From NCBI RefSeq assembly GCF_023078835.1, contig NZ_CP090898.1, positions 1,676,045 through 1,740,044 on the forward strand: 64,000 nucleotides of DNA, given 5' to 3'. Positions 2,660-63,151 of the stretch are shown here, one piece after another; within the stretch, counting starts at the first letter, position 1; each line of letters begins with the position of its first letter. The position numbers and the translations under genes are program-made. A model generated the notes under the pieces. That model worked only from the letters and a program-made list of their open reading frames with translations, was not told the origin of the DNA and made no database searches. The DNA is from Synechococcus sp. NB0720_010. GTDB lineage: Bacteria; Cyanobacteriota; Cyanobacteriia; PCC-6307; Cyanobiaceae.

Positions 2660-3442
2660 TTATGCCAAGGCCTGCTCGACCAGGGCTTGATGCCTGACCT
2701 GAGCCTTGAGTTGACGCCGCAGCGGCTCTTCTAAGGCTGTGCCAGCCAATTCGCCTCGAAGCTCCAGCAGCTGCTGGCAGCATTCCAGGCTGCCGATGCA
2801 ACCGAGGGCCTGGAGTGCCGCTTCAGCGACGCGGGGCAGAGCTTCGGTGCTGATGCAGCCGCGAATGGCAGCTAAGACGCTGGGCTCGTTGCGCCGTTGC
2901 AGCAGCTTGATCGTGGCAATCACCACATCGGCGCGAAAGTCCTGCAGCAGAGGCGTCGTCAGGCGTAGGACCTCCTCGGCCGTCAGGCTGCGATTGCGGA
3001 AGGTCAGCAGGCTGAGGCCTGCCAGGCGATGGCTCTGGCCAGGTGCGCTCAGCGCTGATTCGATGATCCTGAAATCGATCAGATTGCCCCAGCAGCCGAG
3101 GGCTTCGAGCACATCGGGCTCCAGGGGTCCGGCCTCTGGCAGCCAGGTAAGGAGCTGAGTGCAGGCCTGGGGGTGATGACAGATTCCCAGGGCGCGAATG
3201 AGGGGCAGAGAAATGCCCTGCGATTGGCAGAGGGGAAGGATCAAGGCAATGGCCTCGGGTCCGGCCATCCCCAGCCGCTCAGCCAGGCTGAGGGCAAGGG
3301 TGGGATCGGAGACCCGAGGCAGCAGAGCGCTCAGTTCTTCAGGGGTGAGGGGCTGCCGCCGCCAGCGTCCGAGCCGCTCGCTCAGAGCAGCTTCCTCATG
3401 GGGCTGAAGAAGGTCAGAGGCAGGGGCGACAGCGAGTCCCAT
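2660..3442 (-). CDS. HEAT-repeat protein linked to nitrite assimilation
   Basis: This 260-residue protein consists of helical pairs typical of HEAT/PBS-lyase-like repeats, for example QACTQLLTWLPEAGPLEPDV, DVVIATIKLLQRRNEPSVLA and RVAEAALQALGCIGSLECCQ. Such repeats usually mediate protein-protein contacts, and in cyanobacteria related proteins act as lyase-like or scaffold factors. No catalytic motif is visible. Its ATG lies three bases after the stop of the upstream FNT channel gene, so the two are almost certainly cotranscribed, which suggests a role in nitrite uptake or nitrite reductase function. The specific role is inference from context. Confidence 0.8.
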   Translation of the reverse strand: MGLAVAPASDLLQPHEEAALSERLGRWRRQPLTPEELSALLPRVSDPTLALSLAERLGMAGPEAIALILPLCQSQGISLPLIRALGICHHPQACTQLLTWLPEAGPLEPDVLEALGCWGNLIDFRIIESALSAPGQSHRLAGLSLLTFRNRSLTAEEVLRLTTPLLQDFRADVVIATIKLLQRRNEPSVLAAIRGCISTEALPRVAEAALQALGCIGSLECCQQLLELRGELAGTALEEPLRRQLKAQVRHQALVEQALA

Positions 3443-3445
3443 TGA

Positions 3446-4357
3446 TCAGCGAGCCCCCAGCTCGGCGGCCAGTTCCCGCTCCAGCTTGTCGTCGTGCTCA
3501 CTGGGGAGAACGTTGGGCATCTTGGTGCGGTGGGTGCTGTAGAAGAGCATCCCGATGAAGACCATCCCGCCCACGATGTTGCCGAGGGTGACGGGGATGA
3601 AGTTCCAGACGATCACCTTGCCGAAGGACACACCGGAGCCCAGCAGGGGGCCGGCGGTATGCAGGAACTGGTTCACCACGATGTGCTCCATGCCCATCGT
3701 TTGGAAGGCCGTGATCGGCAGCCAGCAGGCCAGCAGCTTGCCGGGAACGCTCTTGCTCACCAGGGCCATGGTCACGCCCAGGCAGACCAGCCAGTTGGCG
3801 ACCATGCCCCGCAGGAAGGCGAGGAAGAAGCCAGTGCTGCCAAGGGCTTCGTACTTGGTGACCACATTCAGCTTGTTGAGCTTGATGATCGTGGCGGCCA
3901 CAACCTGCCAGCCCTTACCGCCGTCGGCAGCGGCCAGGGGCTCAACGGTGCCGGCGCTGGTCAGGCTGGCCCACATGATCAGGGCAACAACGGCGGTGCC
4001 GATGAAGTTGCCAATCCAGACCCAGGCCCAGTTGCGGAAGGTGGCGCTCCAGCTCGCCTTGCCGGCCCAGACGCTCATGGGCAGCAGGGCGAAGTTGCCG
4101 GTGACCAGCTCCATGCCGAAGAGGACGATGCTGGCGAAGCCGAAGGGGAAGAGCAGCGAGCCCAGGAAGGGCATCTTGCTCTGGGCGGCCACGGTCAGGG
4201 CCAGGATCACGGCGAGACCGAGGATGGCTCCGGAATAGAAACCGCGGATCAGCAGGTTCTTGACGCTGACGGTTGCTTTTTTGCCGCCGGCAGCAATCAT
4301 GCCGTCGACTAATTCGTTGGGTAGGACATAGTCCATCTGTGAAGCTGTCGCGCTCAT
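3446..4357 (-). CDS. Formate/nitrite transporter (FNT) family channel, probable nitrite permease
   Basis: The 303-residue protein has six hydrophobic segments and the FNT signature regions FGMELVTGNFALLPMSVWAGK and WVWIGNFIGTAVVALIMWA. FNT proteins are pentameric channels for small monovalent anions. With nirA directly upstream on the same strand, nitrite is the likely substrate, so the protein resembles bacterial NirC in role. The length fits the family. It follows nirA after a 295-base gap and precedes the HEAT-repeat gene by three bases. The gap with its short hairpin may hold a separate promoter. Confidence 0.92.
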   Translation of the reverse strand: MSATASQMDYVLPNELVDGMIAAGGKKATVSVKNLLIRGFYSGAILGLAVILALTVAAQSKMPFLGSLLFPFGFASIVLFGMELVTGNFALLPMSVWAGKASWSATFRNWAWVWIGNFIGTAVVALIMWASLTSAGTVEPLAAADGGKGWQVVAATIIKLNKLNVVTKYEALGSTGFFLAFLRGMVANWLVCLGVTMALVSKSVPGKLLACWLPITAFQTMGMEHIVVNQFLHTAGPLLGSGVSFGKVIVWNFIPVTLGNIVGGMVFIGMLFYSTHRTKMPNVLPSEHDDKLERELAAELGAR

Positions 4358-53596: not shown

Positions 53597-55015
53597 CTAC
53601 GGCGCCGCCAGGTTGCGGAAGCGGGTGAATTGCGGCTCAAACAGCAGCTTGACCGTGCCCACCGGCCCGTTGCGGTGCTTGGTCACGATGATCTCGGTGA
53701 TGCCGCGATCGGGGGTGTCCGGGTTGTAGTACTCGTCCCGGTAGATCATCAGCACCAGGTCGGCGTCCTGCTCGATCGAGCCCGATTCCCGCAGGTCGCT
53801 GAGCATCGGCCGCTTGTTGGTGCGTGATTCCACGCCACGGCTGAGCTGGGAGAGGGCGATCACCGGCACGTTCAGCTCCCGGGCCATTTGTTTGAGGCCC
53901 CGGGTGATCCGCGAGAGCTCCTGGACCCGGTTATCGGATCCGCTTCCTTCCATCAGCTGCAGGTAGTCGATGATCACGACCCCGAGCTCCTTGCCGCTCT
54001 CGGCCATCAGCCGGCGGCAGAGGGATCGCATCTCCAGTACGCCGGCATTCGGCTTGTCGTCGATGTAGATCGGCATCTGCCCCAGGGTGCTGATGCCCTG
54101 GCCCAGCAGGGGCCATTCCTCCGGCTGCAGCCGACCGGTGCGCAGACGACCGCTTTCGATGCCCACCTCCATCGCCAGCAGTCGATAGGTGAGCTGCTCC
54201 TTGCTCATCTCCAGGGAGAAGACGCAGACCGGCAGGTTGTGGAGCTGGGCCACGTTCTTGGCCAGGTTCAGCGTGATGGCGGTTTTGCCCATGGCGGGGC
54301 GGCCGGCCACGATGATCAGGTCGCTGCGCTGCAGCCCCTGGGTCATGGCATCGAGGTCGTAGAAGTTGACCGGGATGCCGGCCACGGCCGTTCCCAGGGA
54401 GCGGCTTTCGATCTCGTTAAAGGTGGCCGTCAGGATTTCCGCCGTTGGGGTGAGGCCAACGCTGGGCTTCTCCTGGCTGATGGCAAAGATCTTCTGCTCG
54501 GCCTCATCCAGCACCTGCTCCATGGGCTTGCCCTGATCGAAGCCCAGCTGAATCACCTCGTTGCCGGAGCGGATCAGCTGACGGCGAAGGAACTTGTCCA
54601 TCACCAGGCGTGCCACCTGGTCGATGGAGGCGGTCGAGAGGGTGCGCTCCACCAGCTCCACCAGCCGGCCGCTGCCACCCACCTTCTCCAGGGCTCCGGT
54701 GTCCGCCAGCCAGGCGGTCATTGCCGTGAGGTCCGTGGGCTTGCCCTGGCCATGGAGCATCAGGGCGGTGCGATAGATCTCCCGGTGGGCGGAGAGATAG
54801 AAGGCCTCCGGCTGCAGCACATCGGCGACGCGGCCGATGGCATCAGGGTCCAGCAGGATCCCGCCCAGCACGGCTTCCTCGGCCTCGAGGTTTTGGGGGG
54901 GCACGCCATCGGGCATCGCCTCGAAGCGTTCGTCCTCCCGCGGTCTGCCCCGGGGCGCCGCGCGACCGCCGCCGCCCTCATCGGCGTCGCTTTGGCTCAG
55001 GGGAACGCTCACCAT
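53597..55015 (-). CDS. dnaB: Replicative DNA helicase DnaB
   Basis: DnaB is the hexameric 5'-3' helicase at the fork. The N-terminal domain (PQNLEAEEAVLGGILLDPDA) and RecA-like ATPase are complete: Walker A GRPAMGKT at 238-245, Walker B GVVIIDYLQLMEG and the C-terminal IAKHRNGPVG-type IVTKHRNGPVGTVKLLFEPQ. The 472 residues carry no intein, although some cyanobacterial dnaB genes have one. It starts at ATG or GTG 55015, just downstream of a terminator for rplI. Confidence 0.97.
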   Translation of the reverse strand: MVSVPLSQSDADEGGGGRAAPRGRPREDERFEAMPDGVPPQNLEAEEAVLGGILLDPDAIGRVADVLQPEAFYLSAHREIYRTALMLHGQGKPTDLTAMTAWLADTGALEKVGGSGRLVELVERTLSTASIDQVARLVMDKFLRRQLIRSGNEVIQLGFDQGKPMEQVLDEAEQKIFAISQEKPSVGLTPTAEILTATFNEIESRSLGTAVAGIPVNFYDLDAMTQGLQRSDLIIVAGRPAMGKTAITLNLAKNVAQLHNLPVCVFSLEMSKEQLTYRLLAMEVGIESGRLRTGRLQPEEWPLLGQGISTLGQMPIYIDDKPNAGVLEMRSLCRRLMAESGKELGVVIIDYLQLMEGSGSDNRVQELSRITRGLKQMARELNVPVIALSQLSRGVESRTNKRPMLSDLRESGSIEQDADLVLMIYRDEYYNPDTPDRGITEIIVTKHRNGPVGTVKLLFEPQFTRFRNLAAP

Positions 55016-55037
55016 TGCTTTGGCCGGGGCTTCAACG

Positions 55038-55070
55038 AAAAAGCCGCCAGTCCCGTTGGGGCCTGACGGC
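55038..55070 (-). terminator. Rho-independent terminator after rplI
   Basis: On the minus strand GCCGTCAG and CTGGCGGC form an eight-base stem with one G-U pair around a GC-rich loop, followed by TTTTT. It lies 60 bases after the rplI stop and 22 bases before the dnaB start, so it likely ends rplI transcription and leaves little space for a separate dnaB promoter. Confidence 0.85.
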
Positions 55071-55130
55071 GAAGGGGTTGCTCATTGTGGCGGGAACGGG
55101 TCGGTTCGCCCAGACCACGCTGAACGGTTC

Positions 55131-55589
55131 TTAGTGGCTGACCACTTCGAGGTTGATCTCAGCGGTGACGGCGCTGTGGAGCTTGACCTGCACCTTGTAG
55201 GTGCCGGTGCGGTGGATTTCGGGGACGATGATGTCGCGGCGGTCCACTTCCTTCTTGGTGGCGGCCTCGATGGCCTCGGCCACGTCGGCGTTGGTCACGG
55301 TGCCGAACAGCACGTCATCGCCACCGGTCTGCTTCTTGACGGTGAAGCGGCCGATGGTGTCGAGGGCGGTGCGGAAGTCCAGGGCTTCCTGCTTGAGGGC
55401 AGCCTGACGCTCAGCTTCCTTGGCGCGGCGGTGCTCCACCTGCTTCAGGACCGCGGGGGTCAGGGGAACAGCCTTGCCTTGGGGCAGGAGGAAGTTGCGG
55501 GCATAACCGGGGGCAACGTCCACCAGGTCACCGTTCTTGCCCAGGCTCAGGACGTCCTCGCTGAGGACTACGGATACACGCTTAGCCAT
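55131..55589 (-). CDS. rplI: Ribosomal protein L9
   Basis: The 152-residue protein begins [20 protein letters not shown] and contains [20 protein letters not shown], the L9 signature. The connecting helix ([20 protein letters not shown]) joins to the C-terminal domain [20 protein letters not shown]. It lies upstream of dnaB, a common bacterial arrangement, and ends at the terminator. Confidence 0.98.
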
Positions 55590-55627
55590 GGGGATGCAGT
55601 CGAACGATCATCGAATTTGGCGATTGA

Positions 55628-56530
55628 TCAGACTACGCCACCACTTGCAGCCTGTGCTAGCAGCGGCCTAGGCAGGCGCACCTGGGTGGCGAGTCCCAGC
55701 CGTTGCAGCAGCCGGATGTGCATCCAGGTGAGGTCCGGTTCGCGCCAGCCCCAGCCGTGGCGCGCTGAGTGGGGGTAGGCGTGGTGGGTGTTGTGCCAGC
55801 CCTCGCCGAAGGTCAGGGCGGCCACCCAGGGGTTGTTGCGGGAGCCGTCGCCGCTGTCGTGCCGGATGTAGCCCCAGCGGTGGGTGGCGGAGTTCACCAG
55901 CCAGGTGCAGTGGTAGACGACCACCAGGCGGAGGGGAATGCCCCAGAGCACCAGGGCCCAGCCGCCGGCGCCGCTGACCGTGCCAATCCAGAAGAGCAGT
56001 CCCGCCAGGGGCAGCTGCAGCGCCAGAAACCAGCGGTTCAGCCAGCGGTAGTAGGGGTCCTTGGCCAGGTCCCCCGTGAACTGGGGCACGGCCTGCTCAG
56101 CGGGGATATCCCGGAACATCCAGCCCATGTGGCTCCACCAGAAGCCCTGGTGGCTGTTGTGGTGATCTGAATCCGTATCCGAAAACTTGTGGTGGTGGCG
56201 GTGCAGGCCCACCCAGTCAATGGGGCCGTGCTGGCAGCTCAGGGCGCCGCAGGTGGCGAAGAAGCGCTCCAGCCAGTGGGGCAGCCGCAGAGCCCGGTGG
56301 GAGAGCAGTCGGTGGTAGCCGATGGTGACCCCCAGGCAGGCCGTGACCCAATAGAGGATGGCCAGGGTGCTGGCGGCTTCCCAGCTCCAGAAGCGTGGCA
56401 GGAGGGCGACGAGGCCCAGGCCATGCAGGGCGGCCATGAAGCCGATCACTCCCCAGTTGCGGGGCAGCTGGTTGATGGGCGTTTGGGCGTGGTTGGCCCA
56501 GACGCTGCTGCGGCTGATGGTGGCAGTCAT
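55628..56530 (-). CDS. Acyl-lipid (delta-9 type) fatty acid desaturase
   Basis: The 300-residue membrane enzyme has three histidine boxes: HRLLSH (in GVTIGYHRLLSHRALRLP), HRHHH in WVGLHRHHHKFSDTDSDHH, and HNTHH in GEGWHNTHHAYPHSARHG. It introduces a double bond in membrane lipid acyl chains, matching the DesC type. AGGAGG sits three bases before ATG 56530. It is divergent from the HTH gene, with an inverted repeat between them, and the second desaturase lies beyond that gene. Confidence 0.93.
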   Translation of the reverse strand: MTATISRSSVWANHAQTPINQLPRNWGVIGFMAALHGLGLVALLPRFWSWEAASTLAILYWVTACLGVTIGYHRLLSHRALRLPHWLERFFATCGALSCQHGPIDWVGLHRHHHKFSDTDSDHHNSHQGFWWSHMGWMFRDIPAEQAVPQFTGDLAKDPYYRWLNRWFLALQLPLAGLLFWIGTVSGAGGWALVLWGIPLRLVVVYHCTWLVNSATHRWGYIRHDSGDGSRNNPWVAALTFGEGWHNTHHAYPHSARHGWGWREPDLTWMHIRLLQRLGLATQVRLPRPLLAQAASGGVV

Positions 56531-56539
56531 CTCCCTCCT

Positions 56540-56595
56540 CTCGATACGGACGCGATGTTCTCGCTAAAATGGTAGCAGTACGGATCCGTATCGAG
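56540..56595. promoter_or_regulatory. Inverted repeat spanning the divergent desaturase/HTH promoter
   Basis: CTCGATACGGA (56540-56550) and TCCGTATCGAG (56585-56595) form a perfect 11-base inverted repeat with a 34-base spacer. The right arm overlaps the perfect palindrome TACGGATCCGTA (56579-56590), giving three copies of TACGGA in 51 bases. Between the arms lies TAAAAT (56565-56570), a possible -10 box for the plus-strand gene. The right arm ends on the first base of that gene's GTG start. It is a candidate operator for the HTH protein. Confidence 0.65.
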
Positions 56596-57371
56596 TGAAT
56601 TATCGGGACGAACTCGAAGCAGGCCGTGACGCGTTTGGGCATCTGATCAAGGTGTGGCACGAGCGGAACGGCTGGAGCCAAAGGGTTTTGCCCGCCCTGG
56701 CGGAGCGCCTGGAGCTCGGCCGTGTCCACAATTCCCAGCTCTCCAACCTGCGTAACCGCAAGTTGACCTCCCCCGGGCCGGAGCTGTTTGTGGCGCTGGG
56801 CCGGATCAATGAATTGCTGGCGGCCCAGGGCCCGGCTGGACTCTCGCCAGAACTCGAGCAGCAGATCAGCGATCAGCCGGAGTTGCTCGCGGCCCTGCAG
56901 TCCTCGGCGCTGCCCCTGTTGAGTGATTCCGATGAGGCCTTAGGCCCAGCCCAGCTCTTCGAGATCTTTGTCGGCCTGCGCCAGCCACCGGGGGCCTTTG
57001 ACCTGCGCATTGATGTCGCCGAGGCGGCGGGCTTGAGTGCCGCCTTGGCGGAGCTGCTGACCGCTGGTCGTCCCTGGCGGCTGTGCAGAGAGCAATTGAT
57101 CGCGGCCTACCCCGGGGAGAAGCGACAGAGACGGGAGCGCTTCGCTGAAGTGATGGCCGGCCAGCGGGAATACAGCGCCGAGGAGTTGGATGCCGAACTG
57201 GCGGACCTGCGCCGGACCCTGGCGGTGCTGGGGGCGGCGGATGAGCAGGAGCTCAGCGCCGATCAATTTTTGGATCTCCTGCGCCAAAAAGCCCGACTGC
57301 TGGAGCAGCCGGGCCAGGGGGAGGAGGAGTCCGATCTGGCGGAGGCGATCCGCCGCCAGTTGCAGGCTTAG
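56595..57371 (+). CDS. HTH-domain protein between two desaturases, unknown regulator
   Basis: The 258-residue protein has an N-terminal Cro/C1-like helix-turn-helix at about residues 15-75 (DAFGHLIKVWHERNGWSQRV, and LELGRVHNSQLSNLRNRKLT). The rest is helical with an acidic C-terminus and an internal region AGLSAALAELLTAGRPWRLC without a recognised ligand motif. It starts at GTG 56595 on the edge of an inverted repeat and converges on the second desaturase with a four-base stop overlap. The position suggests it autoregulates and controls the flanking desaturases; this is inference. Confidence 0.75.
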   Translation: MNYRDELEAGRDAFGHLIKVWHERNGWSQRVLPALAERLELGRVHNSQLSNLRNRKLTSPGPELFVALGRINELLAAQGPAGLSPELEQQISDQPELLAALQSSALPLLSDSDEALGPAQLFEIFVGLRQPPGAFDLRIDVAEAAGLSAALAELLTAGRPWRLCREQLIAAYPGEKRQRRERFAEVMAGQREYSAEELDAELADLRRTLAVLGAADEQELSADQFLDLLRQKARLLEQPGQGEEESDLAEAIRRQLQA

Positions 57372-58336
57372 CCGCTGTAGCGGGCTTCGCGCACCCGCTT
57401 CGCCCAGCCCAGCTTGCGCAGCAGCTTGATGTGCTGCCAGGTGATGTCGAACTCGAACCAGCGCAGGCCATGACGGGCGCTGGAGGGGTGAGCGTGGTGG
57501 TTGTTGTGCCAGCCCTCGCCAAAGCTCAGGATCGCCACCCACCAGCAGTTGCGGGAGAGATCCGGGCAGTCGAAGTTGCGATAGCCAAAGGCGTGGGTGG
57601 CGGAATTCACCAGCCAGGTCACGTGATAGACGATCACCAGGCGCAGGGGAATCGCCCAGAGCACCAGACCCAGGCCGCCGCCATGGACTTGGGCCGCTTC
57701 GCCGTACCAATACAGGGCTGCACCCAGGGGGATCTGGAGCAGGAGGAACCAGCGATCCAGCCAGCGGTAGAGCGGATCCTGGAGCATGTCGCCGGTGAAG
57801 CGGTGGATCTCCTTGATCGCTGGGATCTCGTGGAGCATCCAGTCGCTGTGGGCCCACCACAGGCCGCGGGCGGCGTCGTGGTGGTCGTTCGGTTGGTCAG
57901 AGAACTTGTGGTGGTGGCGGTGGAGGCCGACCCACTCGATCGGACCGCTCTGGCAGGCCAGCGTGCCCATGACCACCAGCACCCGCTCCACCCACTTCGG
58001 AGCAACAAAGCTCCGGTGGGCCACCAGGCGGTGCAGGCCCAGGGTGACGCCGATGACGGTGGTCCAGTACAGGACTGCGAGTACGGCAACCCCTTGCCAG
58101 CTCCAGTACTGGGGCAGCAGCGCAAAGACAGCACCAACGTGGATCGCCAGCATGAAGCCGGTGGTACCTGACTTGTATTTCCTCTGACTACGGGGAAGTT
58201 GTGCACGGGGCACCACCAGGGCGGCGCGCATCCGAGCCTCTTGGGCGGCGGTATACCCATTGGATCCGCTGGCTTGGTCCGACCCCTCGCGCTGAGAAGG
58301 GTGGGCCGCCGCAGCGGTGTCGGGGGCTTGGACCAA
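57368..58336 (-). CDS. Second acyl-lipid fatty acid desaturase
   Basis: This 322-residue paralogue of the first desaturase has the boxes HRLVAH in GVTLGLHRLVAHRSFVAP, HRHHH in WVGLHRHHHKFSDQPNDHH and HNNHH in GEGWHNNHHAHPSSARHG. I place its start at TTG 58336, because AAGGAG is six bases upstream; a longer in-frame stretch to 58405 and an internal ATG at 58231 are possible. It has an N-terminal extension of about 40 residues that the first lacks. The 5' leader contains an inverted repeat. Confidence 0.9.
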   Translation of the reverse strand: MVQAPDTAAAAHPSQREGSDQASGSNGYTAAQEARMRAALVVPRAQLPRSQRKYKSGTTGFMLAIHVGAVFALLPQYWSWQGVAVLAVLYWTTVIGVTLGLHRLVAHRSFVAPKWVERVLVVMGTLACQSGPIEWVGLHRHHHKFSDQPNDHHDAARGLWWAHSDWMLHEIPAIKEIHRFTGDMLQDPLYRWLDRWFLLLQIPLGAALYWYGEAAQVHGGGLGLVLWAIPLRLVIVYHVTWLVNSATHAFGYRNFDCPDLSRNCWWVAILSFGEGWHNNHHAHPSSARHGLRWFEFDITWQHIKLLRKLGWAKRVREARYSG

Positions 58337-58503
58337 GATGAACTCCTTGAAGGGGCGCAGGCGTCGGGTCGCTGTGGTGCTCCAGCAAGGGAGCCTGCGC
58401 ACCAATGGCCTGGGATGTCAGTCGGCTGTAGCCAAGACATCAGTTTGAAAAATCTAGACGGCTGGCCCACCGTCACGCGGGAGCAGCATGGGTTCACCTG
58501 TGG
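58337..58503 (-). promoter_or_regulatory. Structured leader and promoter region of the second desaturase
   Basis: GCGCAGGC (58355-58362) and GCCTGCGC (58393-58400) form a perfect eight-base inverted repeat separated by 30 bases. Alternative pairing is possible: CTCC near 58395-58390 can pair with GGAG in the loop (around 58378) or with the AAGGAG ribosome binding site at 58346-58341. This gives a leader that could open or close the start. A TAGATT (minus strand, near 58455) may be a -10 box. No TACGGA repeat is present here. Confidence 0.4.
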
Positions 58504-59808
58504 ATGGCCATGACCTCTCCTCACCAGGCCTGGGCTGCTGATCAGTTGGCCGTTGCCCTGGAGCGCACGGCGCCGGTGGCCCAGGAGCGTCGGGCGGGCA
58601 TCAAGCCCCGGTTGCAGCGGGTGCTCGACGCCTTTGCGGCGGAGCGATTGGGGGTGCACCATTTCGCCTCCGTCAGTGGCTACGGCCATGGGGACCTGGG
58701 CAGGGAGGTGCTCGACCGGGTCTTTGCCCGGGTGCTGCAGGCCGAGGCCGCCGCGGTGCGCCTGCAATTTGTGAGCGGCACCCATGCCATCGCCGCTGCC
58801 CTCTATGGGGTGTTGCGGCCCGGTGATCGGCTCTTGGCCCTGACGGGGCGTCCTTACGACACCTTGGAAGAGGTCATCGGCATCCGGGGCGAGGGGCAGG
58901 GGTCCCTGGCGGAGTTCGGTGTGGCCTATGACGAGCTGGATCTCCTCCCCGATGGGAGCGTCGATGAGGCGGGAATCGCTGGGGCACTGGCTGTGCCCAC
59001 CCGCATGGTCCTGATCCAGCGCAGCTGCGGCTACAGCTGGCGCCCATCCTTGACCGTGGCGCAGATCGCTCGATTGGTGGAGCGGGTCAAGGCGGTTCAG
59101 CCTGGCTGCCTGGTGTTCGTCGACAACTGCTACGGCGAGCTCGTTGAGCTGCAGGAGCCCACGGCCGTCGGAGCGGACCTGATGGCGGGCTCCTTGATCA
59201 AGAACCTCGGCGGCACGATTGCTCCGACGGGCGGCTACGTCGCCGGGCGCGAGGAGCTGGTGGAGCAGGCCTGTTGCCGGCTGACCGCCCCGGGCATCGG
59301 TAGTGAAGGGGGAACAGGCTTTGACCTGCATCGCCTGCTCTTCCAAGGACTGTTTTTGGCGCCGCAGATGGTGACCGAGGCGCTGCTCTGCGCTGAGTTG
59401 ACCGCAGCGGTGTTTGACGGCTTGGGCTACGCGGTCAAGCCCCTGGTGGGAGGGGTGCGCAGCGATGTGATTCAGGCGGTGCGCCTGGGGTCCCCCGAAC
59501 CGCTGAAGGCCGTCTGCCGCGCCTTTCAGACCTGTTCTCCCGTGGGCTCCTACCTCGATCCGATCCCAGCACCGATGCCCGGCTACGCCAGTGAGTTGGT
59601 GATGGCGGGCGGGACCTTTATCGATGGCAGCACCAGTGAGTTCTCCGCCGATGGCCCCCTGCGGGAGCCCTACGTCCTCTATGCCCAGGGCGGCACCACC
59701 CAGGCCCATGCGGAGCTCGCCTTGGAGCGGGCCCTGCTGGCGTTAGCTGAATCCCATTACAAGGGTGGCCCTGGGAACAGCCGCGCCTCGGCAAATTCGA
59801 CAAAATGA
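58504..59808 (+). CDS. Methionine gamma-lyase-like PLP enzyme (aluminium resistance family)
   Basis: The 434-residue protein belongs to the PLP-dependent family annotated as aluminium-resistance or methionine gamma-lyase-like. The PLP lysine is K233 in GSLIKNLGGTIAPTGGYVAG, and VFVDNCYGELVELQEP supplies the aspartate. QFVSGTHAIAAALYGVLRPG and RSDVIQAVRLG-type motifs match. The reaction in cyanobacteria is unproven. Its stop overlaps the gcvH start (ATGA), so it is coupled to the glycine cleavage genes. Confidence 0.88.
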   Translation: MAMTSPHQAWAADQLAVALERTAPVAQERRAGIKPRLQRVLDAFAAERLGVHHFASVSGYGHGDLGREVLDRVFARVLQAEAAAVRLQFVSGTHAIAAALYGVLRPGDRLLALTGRPYDTLEEVIGIRGEGQGSLAEFGVAYDELDLLPDGSVDEAGIAGALAVPTRMVLIQRSCGYSWRPSLTVAQIARLVERVKAVQPGCLVFVDNCYGELVELQEPTAVGADLMAGSLIKNLGGTIAPTGGYVAGREELVEQACCRLTAPGIGSEGGTGFDLHRLLFQGLFLAPQMVTEALLCAELTAAVFDGLGYAVKPLVGGVRSDVIQAVRLGSPEPLKAVCRAFQTCSPVGSYLDPIPAPMPGYASELVMAGGTFIDGSTSEFSADGPLREPYVLYAQGGTTQAHAELALERALLALAESHYKGGPGNSRASANSTK

Positions 59809-60223
59809 GAGCCACTTTTGCTGCGGCGCGGCCCATGGGTCTGCACTATCCCGATGACTGCCGCTATTCCGACAGTCACGAGTACGTGAAGTCCGAAGGG
59901 GAGCTGGTGCGCGTCGGCATCAGCGCCTTTGCGGTCGATCAGCTGGGGGACATCGTCTTTGTGGAGTTGCCCGAGGTGGGGGACAGCCTCAGCCAGGGCT
60001 CCAGCTTCGGTTCGGTGGAGTCGGTGAAGGCCGTGGAGGACATGCTCTCCCCGATCGATGGCACCGTGGAGGCCCGCAATGAGGCGGTCCTGGCGAGCCC
60101 CGAGGAGCTGCAGAACGATCCCTATGGCGAGGGTTGGTTGCTGTTGGTGCGTCCGAGCGCACCGGCCCAGATCGAGGCTCTGATGGATGCCGCGAGCTAC
60201 GGCGCCAAGGTCGACGGTCACTG

Positions 60224-60224
<1 letters not shown>
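59805..60224 (+). CDS. gcvH: Glycine cleavage system H protein
   Basis: GcvH carries the lipoyl arm between the P, T and L proteins. The lipoylated lysine is K75 in [20 protein letters not shown]. The 139 residues include a short N-terminal extension before [23 protein letters not shown] 59835 is an alternative start. The stop overlaps gcvP by one base (TGATG), and the start overlaps the PLP-lyase gene. Confidence 0.97.

Positions 60225-63151
<2,927 letters not shown>

Follow-up and report, generated by a model that had tools for sequence, protein, structure and literature searches.

Two desaturase genes flank a helix-turn-helix gene

We analyzed a 64-kb stretch of the Synechococcus sp. NB0720_010 genome (positions 1,676,045–1,740,044 of contig NZ_CP090898.1; hereafter the window, within which all coordinates are given) that contains a helix-turn-helix (HTH) regulator gene lying between two fatty-acid desaturase genes. 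The HTH gene (56595–57371, plus strand, GTG start) encodes P0001, a protein of 258 amino acids described here through a 38-member alignment and a predicted helical fold. It is divergent from the gene of desaturase 1 (P0002, 300 amino acids; 55628–56530, minus strand) and convergent on that of desaturase 2 (P0003, start uncertain; 57368 to about 58339, minus strand), and the stops of the HTH gene and desaturase 2 overlap at 57368–57371. Comparison of this locus across related genomes makes the HTH gene a strong candidate for a switch of the adjacent desaturase 1 in picocyanobacteria.

The first-pass annotation, made from the letters of the window alone, had named both flanking genes as desaturases, and this identification holds: the FA_desaturase family (PF00487) matches P0002 with 71.1 bits and P0003 with 64.5 bits, above the cut-off of 29.7. 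Acyl-lipid fatty-acid desaturases require three histidine boxes, and P0002 carries all of them (HRLLSH, HRHHH and HNTHH). The two desaturases are 55% identical over 284 columns.

Between the divergent genes, a sigma-70-like promoter scan placed a -10-like box of the HTH gene, TAAAAT, at 56565–56570 (plus strand), with a weak -35 element, TCGATA, at 56541 (9 of 12 matches). It is the sole sigma-70-like site in 55000–58600, and shuffled versions of that region hold 0.4 such sites on average. Overlapping the box on the minus strand is TGCTACCAT (56569–56577), which, as read from the sequence, would be the extended -10 of desaturase 1. The candidate promoter operator is an imperfect dyad of about 18 bp, CAGTACGGATCCGTATCG (56576–56593, plus strand; centre at 56584.5), identified with the leave-one-genus-out weight matrix described below; the GTG start of the HTH gene lies 1 nt past its end. 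A protein on this dyad would cover the start of the HTH gene and would block access to the desaturase 1 promoter. An Rfam scan of 55500–58600 returned no RNA element at the gathering score.

A compact dyad is conserved between the divergent genes

An operator had previously been proposed here in a different form, as an exact 11-bp inverted repeat formed by CTCGATACGGA (56540–56550) and TCCGTATCGAG (56585–56595) across a 34-nt gap. The repeat is present as described, with TACGGA occurring three times (56545–56550, 56579–56584 and, as the complement, 56585–56590) and the HTH open reading frame beginning on the last base of the repeat. Since 5 distinct places in the window hold an exact 11-bp repeat with a gap of at most 60 nt, the repeat by itself is little evidence. 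Its left arm, CTCGATACGGA on the plus strand, is a lone half-site: of 20 loci scanned from the same genus, only three, L001–L003, have it (with GATACGGA upstream of the operator), and the long-spaced repeat was therefore rejected as the operator. Between L001 and L002/L003 the two arms differ by a change that looks compensatory to the eye; it is a single event and we do not rely on it. What stands above chance is a compact dyad inside the 56535–56600 region, contained in the 20-mer GCAGTACGGATCCGTATCGA at 56575–56594, so that the expected conservation across relatives was borne out for this element and not for the left arm.

Conservation of the dyad was assessed in 59 loci from 30 genera (L001–L030 and L144–L173 minus the incomplete L023; L111–L143 were unused) using a 20-column weight matrix from which each genus was left out in turn, with p values derived from 100 dinucleotide-shuffled sequences of about 200 nt (minimum p 0.01). 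The dyad was recovered at p ≤ 0.02 in 56 of the 59 loci and in 29 of the 30 genera; the loci missed are L029, L030 and L166, and the genus without any locus at this level is g12. Scores are mostly 14–28, with shuffled means of -8.7 to 0.3, and the two g9 loci score 10.1 and 11.4. The test is not wholly independent, as its initial alignment was built on a consensus taken from these same loci. In the upstream regions of relatives the dyad sits where the right arm of the 11-bp repeat meets TACGGA, and it takes forms such as CCGATACGGATCCGTATCAA and TGATAAGGATCCATATCA in other genera, while the flanking intergenic sequence differs. The g40 loci (L166–L171, from small genomes) keep the gene pair with an altered operator core, and show two adjacent candidate dyads, CGATATGTAATATTATCA and TGATAAGTTTAATTATCT, upstream of the HTH start.

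The distance from the end of the 20-mer to the aligned first residue of the HTH protein falls into two main classes, 0–2 nt in 23 of the 59 loci (g1, g6, g58 and g77) and 34–38 nt in 32, with 14, 14, 58 and 104 nt in the other four; it varies among named freshwater contigs too. An in-frame start codon -2 to +6 nt from the 20-mer end, from which the frame stays open up to residue 1, is available in 39 of the 59 loci. The motif TANNNT, which is loose and was given no chance estimate, lies next to the operator on the plus strand in 42 loci and on the minus strand in 57.

Sites of this kind are rare outside the locus. With the window's own genus left out of the matrix, the best operator-like scores in the 64 kb are 20.6 at a site inside the desaturase 1 gene and 19.4 at the promoter, and the next place scores 9.7. 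A pattern built from these two sites and allowed at most one mismatch matched the 2.41-Mb genome at only those two places (reversed control, 0), and a shorter pattern with two mismatches gave matches at the control level. In 16 other genomes a similar pattern found 10 distinct exact sites in 8 genomes, all at this locus (3 promoter and 7 intragenic). Since the patterns were drawn from known sites, only the presence or absence of other sites is informative. One-mismatch sites away from the locus recur in g57 genomes (G080, G120, G145 and G166), for example ATTACGGATCCCGATCG in three of them; further targets in g57 are possible because such sites exceed the reversed control and some are common to g57 genomes.

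An operator-like site lies inside the desaturase 1 gene

The second site, CGGATACGGATTCAGATCAC (56162–56181, minus strand), had not been reported in the first-pass annotation and scores as well as the promoter site, from which it is separated by about 413 bp. It encodes S-D-T-D-S-D-H in the histidine-box loop, within the conserved protein motif KFSDTDxDHH, and is distinguished by its matrix score and by codon choice. The motif was present in 95 of 132 distinct desaturase 1 genes, 89 GC-rich and 6 AT-rich. In the 89 GC-rich genes, GAT encodes the first Asp of the site in 69 and the last Asp in 74, and ACG encodes the Thr in 65; in the remainder of these genes GAT accounts for 21% of Asp codons and ACG for 17% of Thr codons. 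Other conserved Asp columns of desaturase 1 show GAT in 6/76, 15/61, 9/29 and 20/90 genes, and the homologous Asp of desaturase 2 in 21/48.

We then grouped genes into clusters at 90% identity and tested the codons of each site against others sampled from the rest of that gene; the matrix used in the permutation, codon and recount tests includes promoter sites of the same lineages. Codon choice favours the intragenic site at p < 0.01 in 25 of the 39 GC-rich clusters, and a score of at least 10 is likewise reached in 25, with both in 24. In a within-gene permutation, 27 of 63 clusters have p < 0.05 at the site, which is joint highest among 773 windows (median 2), and a score of at least 10 is found at the aligned site in 35 of 63 clusters, compared with at most 2 for other windows. 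Ranked by mean excess over permutation, the site is fifth, exceeded by windows of very low score. When single codon columns are ranked, the motif serine is first of 189. The measures we rely on are the number of significant clusters and the same-gene comparison at the fixed site; a Fisher value obtained with the latter was set aside because it counts relatives as independent genes. These results suggest selection on the DNA in about two thirds of the GC-rich clusters and its loss in the rest.

The HTH gene is paired with desaturase 1

Of 110 loci, 108 have desaturase 1 as the divergent neighbour of the HTH gene, and the other two are cut off inside the HTH gene; many of the 110 represent the same genome taken from two collections. 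A single-best-hit recount gives 105 of 110 because three loci hold only a shortened desaturase 1. The same divergent pairing is seen in 29 of 30 further loci hand-chosen across genera, the remaining one (L173) having no desaturase 1 within 1.5 kb. Desaturase 2 is linked less tightly to the HTH gene, and control of desaturase 2 by P0001, which had also been proposed, is not supported, as a matrix match of at least 10 occurs in only 1 of 94 distinct upstream regions of 300 nt. What stands of the desaturase switch first envisaged is that the HTH gene and desaturase 1 form a conserved divergent pair and that the dyad in their intergenic region is conserved.

Of 400 genomes from the taxonomic family of the window, 335 encode a member of the P0001 family (228 of 251 good genomes); in a sample of 291 genomes of the class it turned up in 29, every one of them from that same taxonomic family. 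In genus g5, the HTH gene is present in 2 of 34 genomes and a desaturase 1 orthologue (74–78% identity) in 6, including both HTH carriers; the other 28 show neither gene. Among 13 genomes examined that lack the HTH gene, a desaturase 1 orthologue was found in 2. The five loci with desaturase 1 and no HTH gene (L174, L175 and L188–L190) have no promoter operator, their best scores outside the intragenic site being at most 9.5. This is weak evidence because one deletion could remove the gene and its operator together. By eye, L174 retains a decayed, 19-nt look-alike of the operator. In the g5 loci L175 and L188–L190 both desaturases lie side by side with no HTH gene, about 360 nt apart in L175.

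The genes neighbouring the locus in the window (53597–55589 and 58504–63151) include ones that we take to be dnaB, ribosomal protein L9 and gcvH/gcvP-like genes, together with a gene for a methionine gamma-lyase family protein (Pfam, 565 bits). An L9-like open reading frame also lies upstream of desaturase 1 in L174.

P0001 matches no Pfam or NCBIfam family

P0001 has no family match in Pfam (up to E = 1) or NCBIfam. Among the 38 aligned family members, HTH_3 is matched in 2 (best E 0.066), and a prophage homologue of P0001 scores 19.0 bits against HTH_3, below the cut-off of 23. The alignment contains many invariant residues, including in the HTH region. C164, the lone cysteine of P0001, is invariant in all 38 members and is a possible thiol or ligand sensor.

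The AlphaFold model of P0001 is helical (predicted local distance difference test, pLDDT, 85.7; predicted template modelling score, pTM, 0.66). Its N-terminal part aligns with the N-terminal domain of SinR (Z 6.3, root-mean-square deviation (rmsd) 2.3, 69 residues aligned; a middling score) and with C.BclI (Z 6.6, rmsd 2.8, 75 aligned), and a Foldseek search gave no match at E ≤ 0.001. The C-terminal domain of about 125 residues, taken alone, matches C.Esp1396I (Z 6.4, rmsd 2.8, 74 aligned), and likewise returned no Foldseek match at E ≤ 0.001; a tandem HTH arrangement was considered and is not proposed, the structural match being middling and without support from sequence.

Distant homologues of P0001 (32% identity over 202 columns) are found in prophage-like cassettes, at 2949–3632 (minus strand) in L194, 3025–3708 (plus) in L196 and 2956–3708 (plus) in L197. 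The L194 homologue adjoins a Bro-N anti-repressor gene, and that of L197 adjoins genes for KilA-N and Gp2.5-like single-stranded DNA-binding proteins. Relatives are also encoded by 6 IMG/VR viral contigs (L199–L204); in the 'phages' collection neither P0001 nor its prophage homologue found a match. By eye, the upstream regions of three prophage homologues have no obvious shared dyad. Recruitment of P0001 from a mobile element is possible, judging by these relatives.

A model of repression and its alternatives

The gene pairing, the conserved operator, the lack of other close sites in this genome and the codon-level conservation of the intragenic site come directly from the comparison. Because a conserved divergent pair has a conserved dyad between its members, the arrangement is most naturally read as autoregulation combined with control of desaturase 1, and repression is the likelier direction of control. 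We consider it fairly probable, on these sequence comparisons, that P0001 is a dedicated, autoregulating local repressor of desaturase 1 that also uses an auxiliary intragenic operator. We hypothesize that a P0001 dimer binds the dyad of about 18 bp at 56576–56593, which lies a few bases downstream of the HTH -10-like box, over the probable transcription start of the HTH gene, and which, read towards the divergent desaturase 1, immediately precedes the -10-like box of that gene and touches its TGC extension. The bound protein would block both promoters, resulting in autorepression and in repression of desaturase 1. In many lineages, including this genome, the intragenic operator some 413 bp away would strengthen repression through DNA looping or as a roadblock, and release of the repressor, probably in cold or other membrane stress, would allow desaturase 1 to be made.

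Several results weigh against this model. The chief one is that the intragenic site is kept in three of the four g5 genomes that lack the HTH gene (scores 14.7–20.0; 8.1 in the fourth). It is not favoured in 14 of the 39 GC-rich clusters, none of which reaches p < 0.05, and the AT-rich clusters are uninformative (1 of 24 at p < 0.01, with 10 of 24 scoring at least 10). The ranking of codon columns puts the Thr of the site only at 10 and its two Asp at 40 and 41 of 189. No covariation was found at position 9 between promoter and intragenic sites (Fisher p = 1), nor any helical phasing between them (R 0.19, n = 38, including three in-gene sites elsewhere). At the promoter, the g40 loci match weakly (score 8.3, p 0.01–0.04), and 20 of the 59 loci have no start codon abutting the dyad. 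One-mismatch matches away from the locus number 20 in the 16 genomes, compared with 6 for the reversed control. The g5 genomes with both genes are two incomplete drafts (68% and 79%, the second 6% contaminated), whereas the 19 good g5 genomes include none with the HTH gene and two with desaturase 1 alone; altogether 4 of the 34 carry desaturase 1 without the HTH gene, so the enzyme manages without it there. Finally, P0001 itself has no significant match to an HTH family.

The most serious alternative concerns the intragenic site alone, which could be a coding or translational feature, such as rare codons at the histidine-box loop, instead of a DNA-binding site; we give this a substantial but minority chance. 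It is consistent with the location of the site in a conserved protein motif, with its persistence in the three HTH-less genomes and with the strong bias of many other codon columns. Yet a matrix derived from promoter operators singles the site out in 25 of the 39 GC-rich clusters, and the first Asp of the loop is GAT in 28 of 39 desaturase 1 clusters, compared with 20 of 46 for desaturase 2.

Alternatively, P0001 might repress its own gene and activate desaturase 1, acting from a position upstream of the -10 box of the latter. By eye, no good -35 box precedes TGCTACCAT at desaturase 1, and the dyad, conserved in 29 of 30 genera, is placed where a spacer-binding activator could act. Such activators, however, are typically MerR proteins, whereas P0001 has no Pfam match, and a downstream intragenic copy would fit repression better; we regard activation as rather unlikely. 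We judge it distinctly unlikely that the dyad is bound by another regulator of global reach, responding to cold or light, and that the HTH gene is a passenger. Such a regulator would accord with the off-locus excess of one-mismatch sites and with the four g5 genomes that retain desaturase 1 without the HTH gene, and PMC3264485 places cyanobacterial cold genes partly under Hik33–Rre26 and DNA supercoiling. It accords poorly with a genome in which no other site lies within one mismatch, with the confinement of all 10 exact sites of the 16 further genomes to this locus, with a dyad that moves with the HTH start region, and with the missing promoter dyad in the five HTH-less desaturase loci, although one deletion could account for the last. 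That the repeat is a product of chance and the gene pair simple old synteny is very improbable: the five places with such repeats in the window make chance an adequate account of the left arm, but an unlikely one for a compact dyad kept in 29 of 30 genera amid differing flanks.

Comparison with known regulatory systems

The repressor model resembles several known systems in part. The predicted helical N-terminal part of P0001 resembles, at middling scores, the XRE/lambda-repressor-like autorepressors, among them SinR and the C proteins of restriction-modification systems, and a local dyad lies at the gene's own promoter. P0001 differs from them in having no Pfam HTH_3 match above the cut-off, an extra C-terminal domain of about 125 residues and a fatty-acid desaturase as its partner. 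DesT, FabT and DesK–DesR are bacterial regulators of membrane-lipid genes, and P0001 would likewise control unsaturation genes transcriptionally. DesT carries a TetR N-terminal domain; P0001, without a match in Pfam, shows neither a TetR nor a MarR or response-regulator domain. Auxiliary intragenic operators are used in lac and gal repression, where, as here at about 413 bp, a promoter operator is combined with one in the downstream coding region. In contrast to lac and gal, no wider regulon and no helical phasing are seen here, and the intragenic copy is not favoured in the 14 GC-rich clusters noted above. For DesK–DesR, the role in membrane-lipid gene regulation is described in PMC3264485.

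Several papers on marine Synechococcus bear on the identity of the two desaturases. Desaturase content distinguishes cold from warm thermotypes (PMC7393227, PMC9124967), and cold-adapted strains carry the delta-9 desaturase DesC4 (PMC7393227, PMC9361551, PMC9124967). In PMC9361551, 47 of 48 freshwater strains have DesC4 and 22 of 48 marine strains lack it. In strain WH7803 DesC4 is strongly differentially expressed at low temperature and under other stresses (PMC7393227); the same paper calls DesC3 a core delta-9 desaturase. Desaturase 1 is probably a DesC4-type acyl-lipid desaturase and desaturase 2 the probable core DesC3; both assignments are made from distribution, which for desaturase 1 agrees with that published for DesC4 (named cluster CK_00008117). 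The passages on DesC4 consulted in these papers (PMC7393227, PMC9361551, PMC9124967) make no mention of a neighbouring HTH gene. Among the literature matches listed, no title or abstract opening names the HTH gene, and none of the matches provides a regulator of these desaturase genes.

More tentatively, P0001 may represent a regulator family outside Pfam and NCBIfam, nearly universal in Prochlorococcus/Synechococcus-type cyanobacteria and distantly akin to prophage HTH proteins, that was recruited to control one desaturase and acts through two operators, one at the promoter and the other embedded in the codons of the histidine-box loop. The invariant C164 may then serve as its sensor, and loss of the module might be part of warm-thermotype genome evolution.

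If the intragenic operator is real, it would offer a clear example, spanning many lineages, of codon choice maintained for DNA binding. Picocyanobacteria are among the most abundant photosynthetic cells on Earth, and a candidate regulator with a mapped putative operator makes control of their desaturase directly testable.

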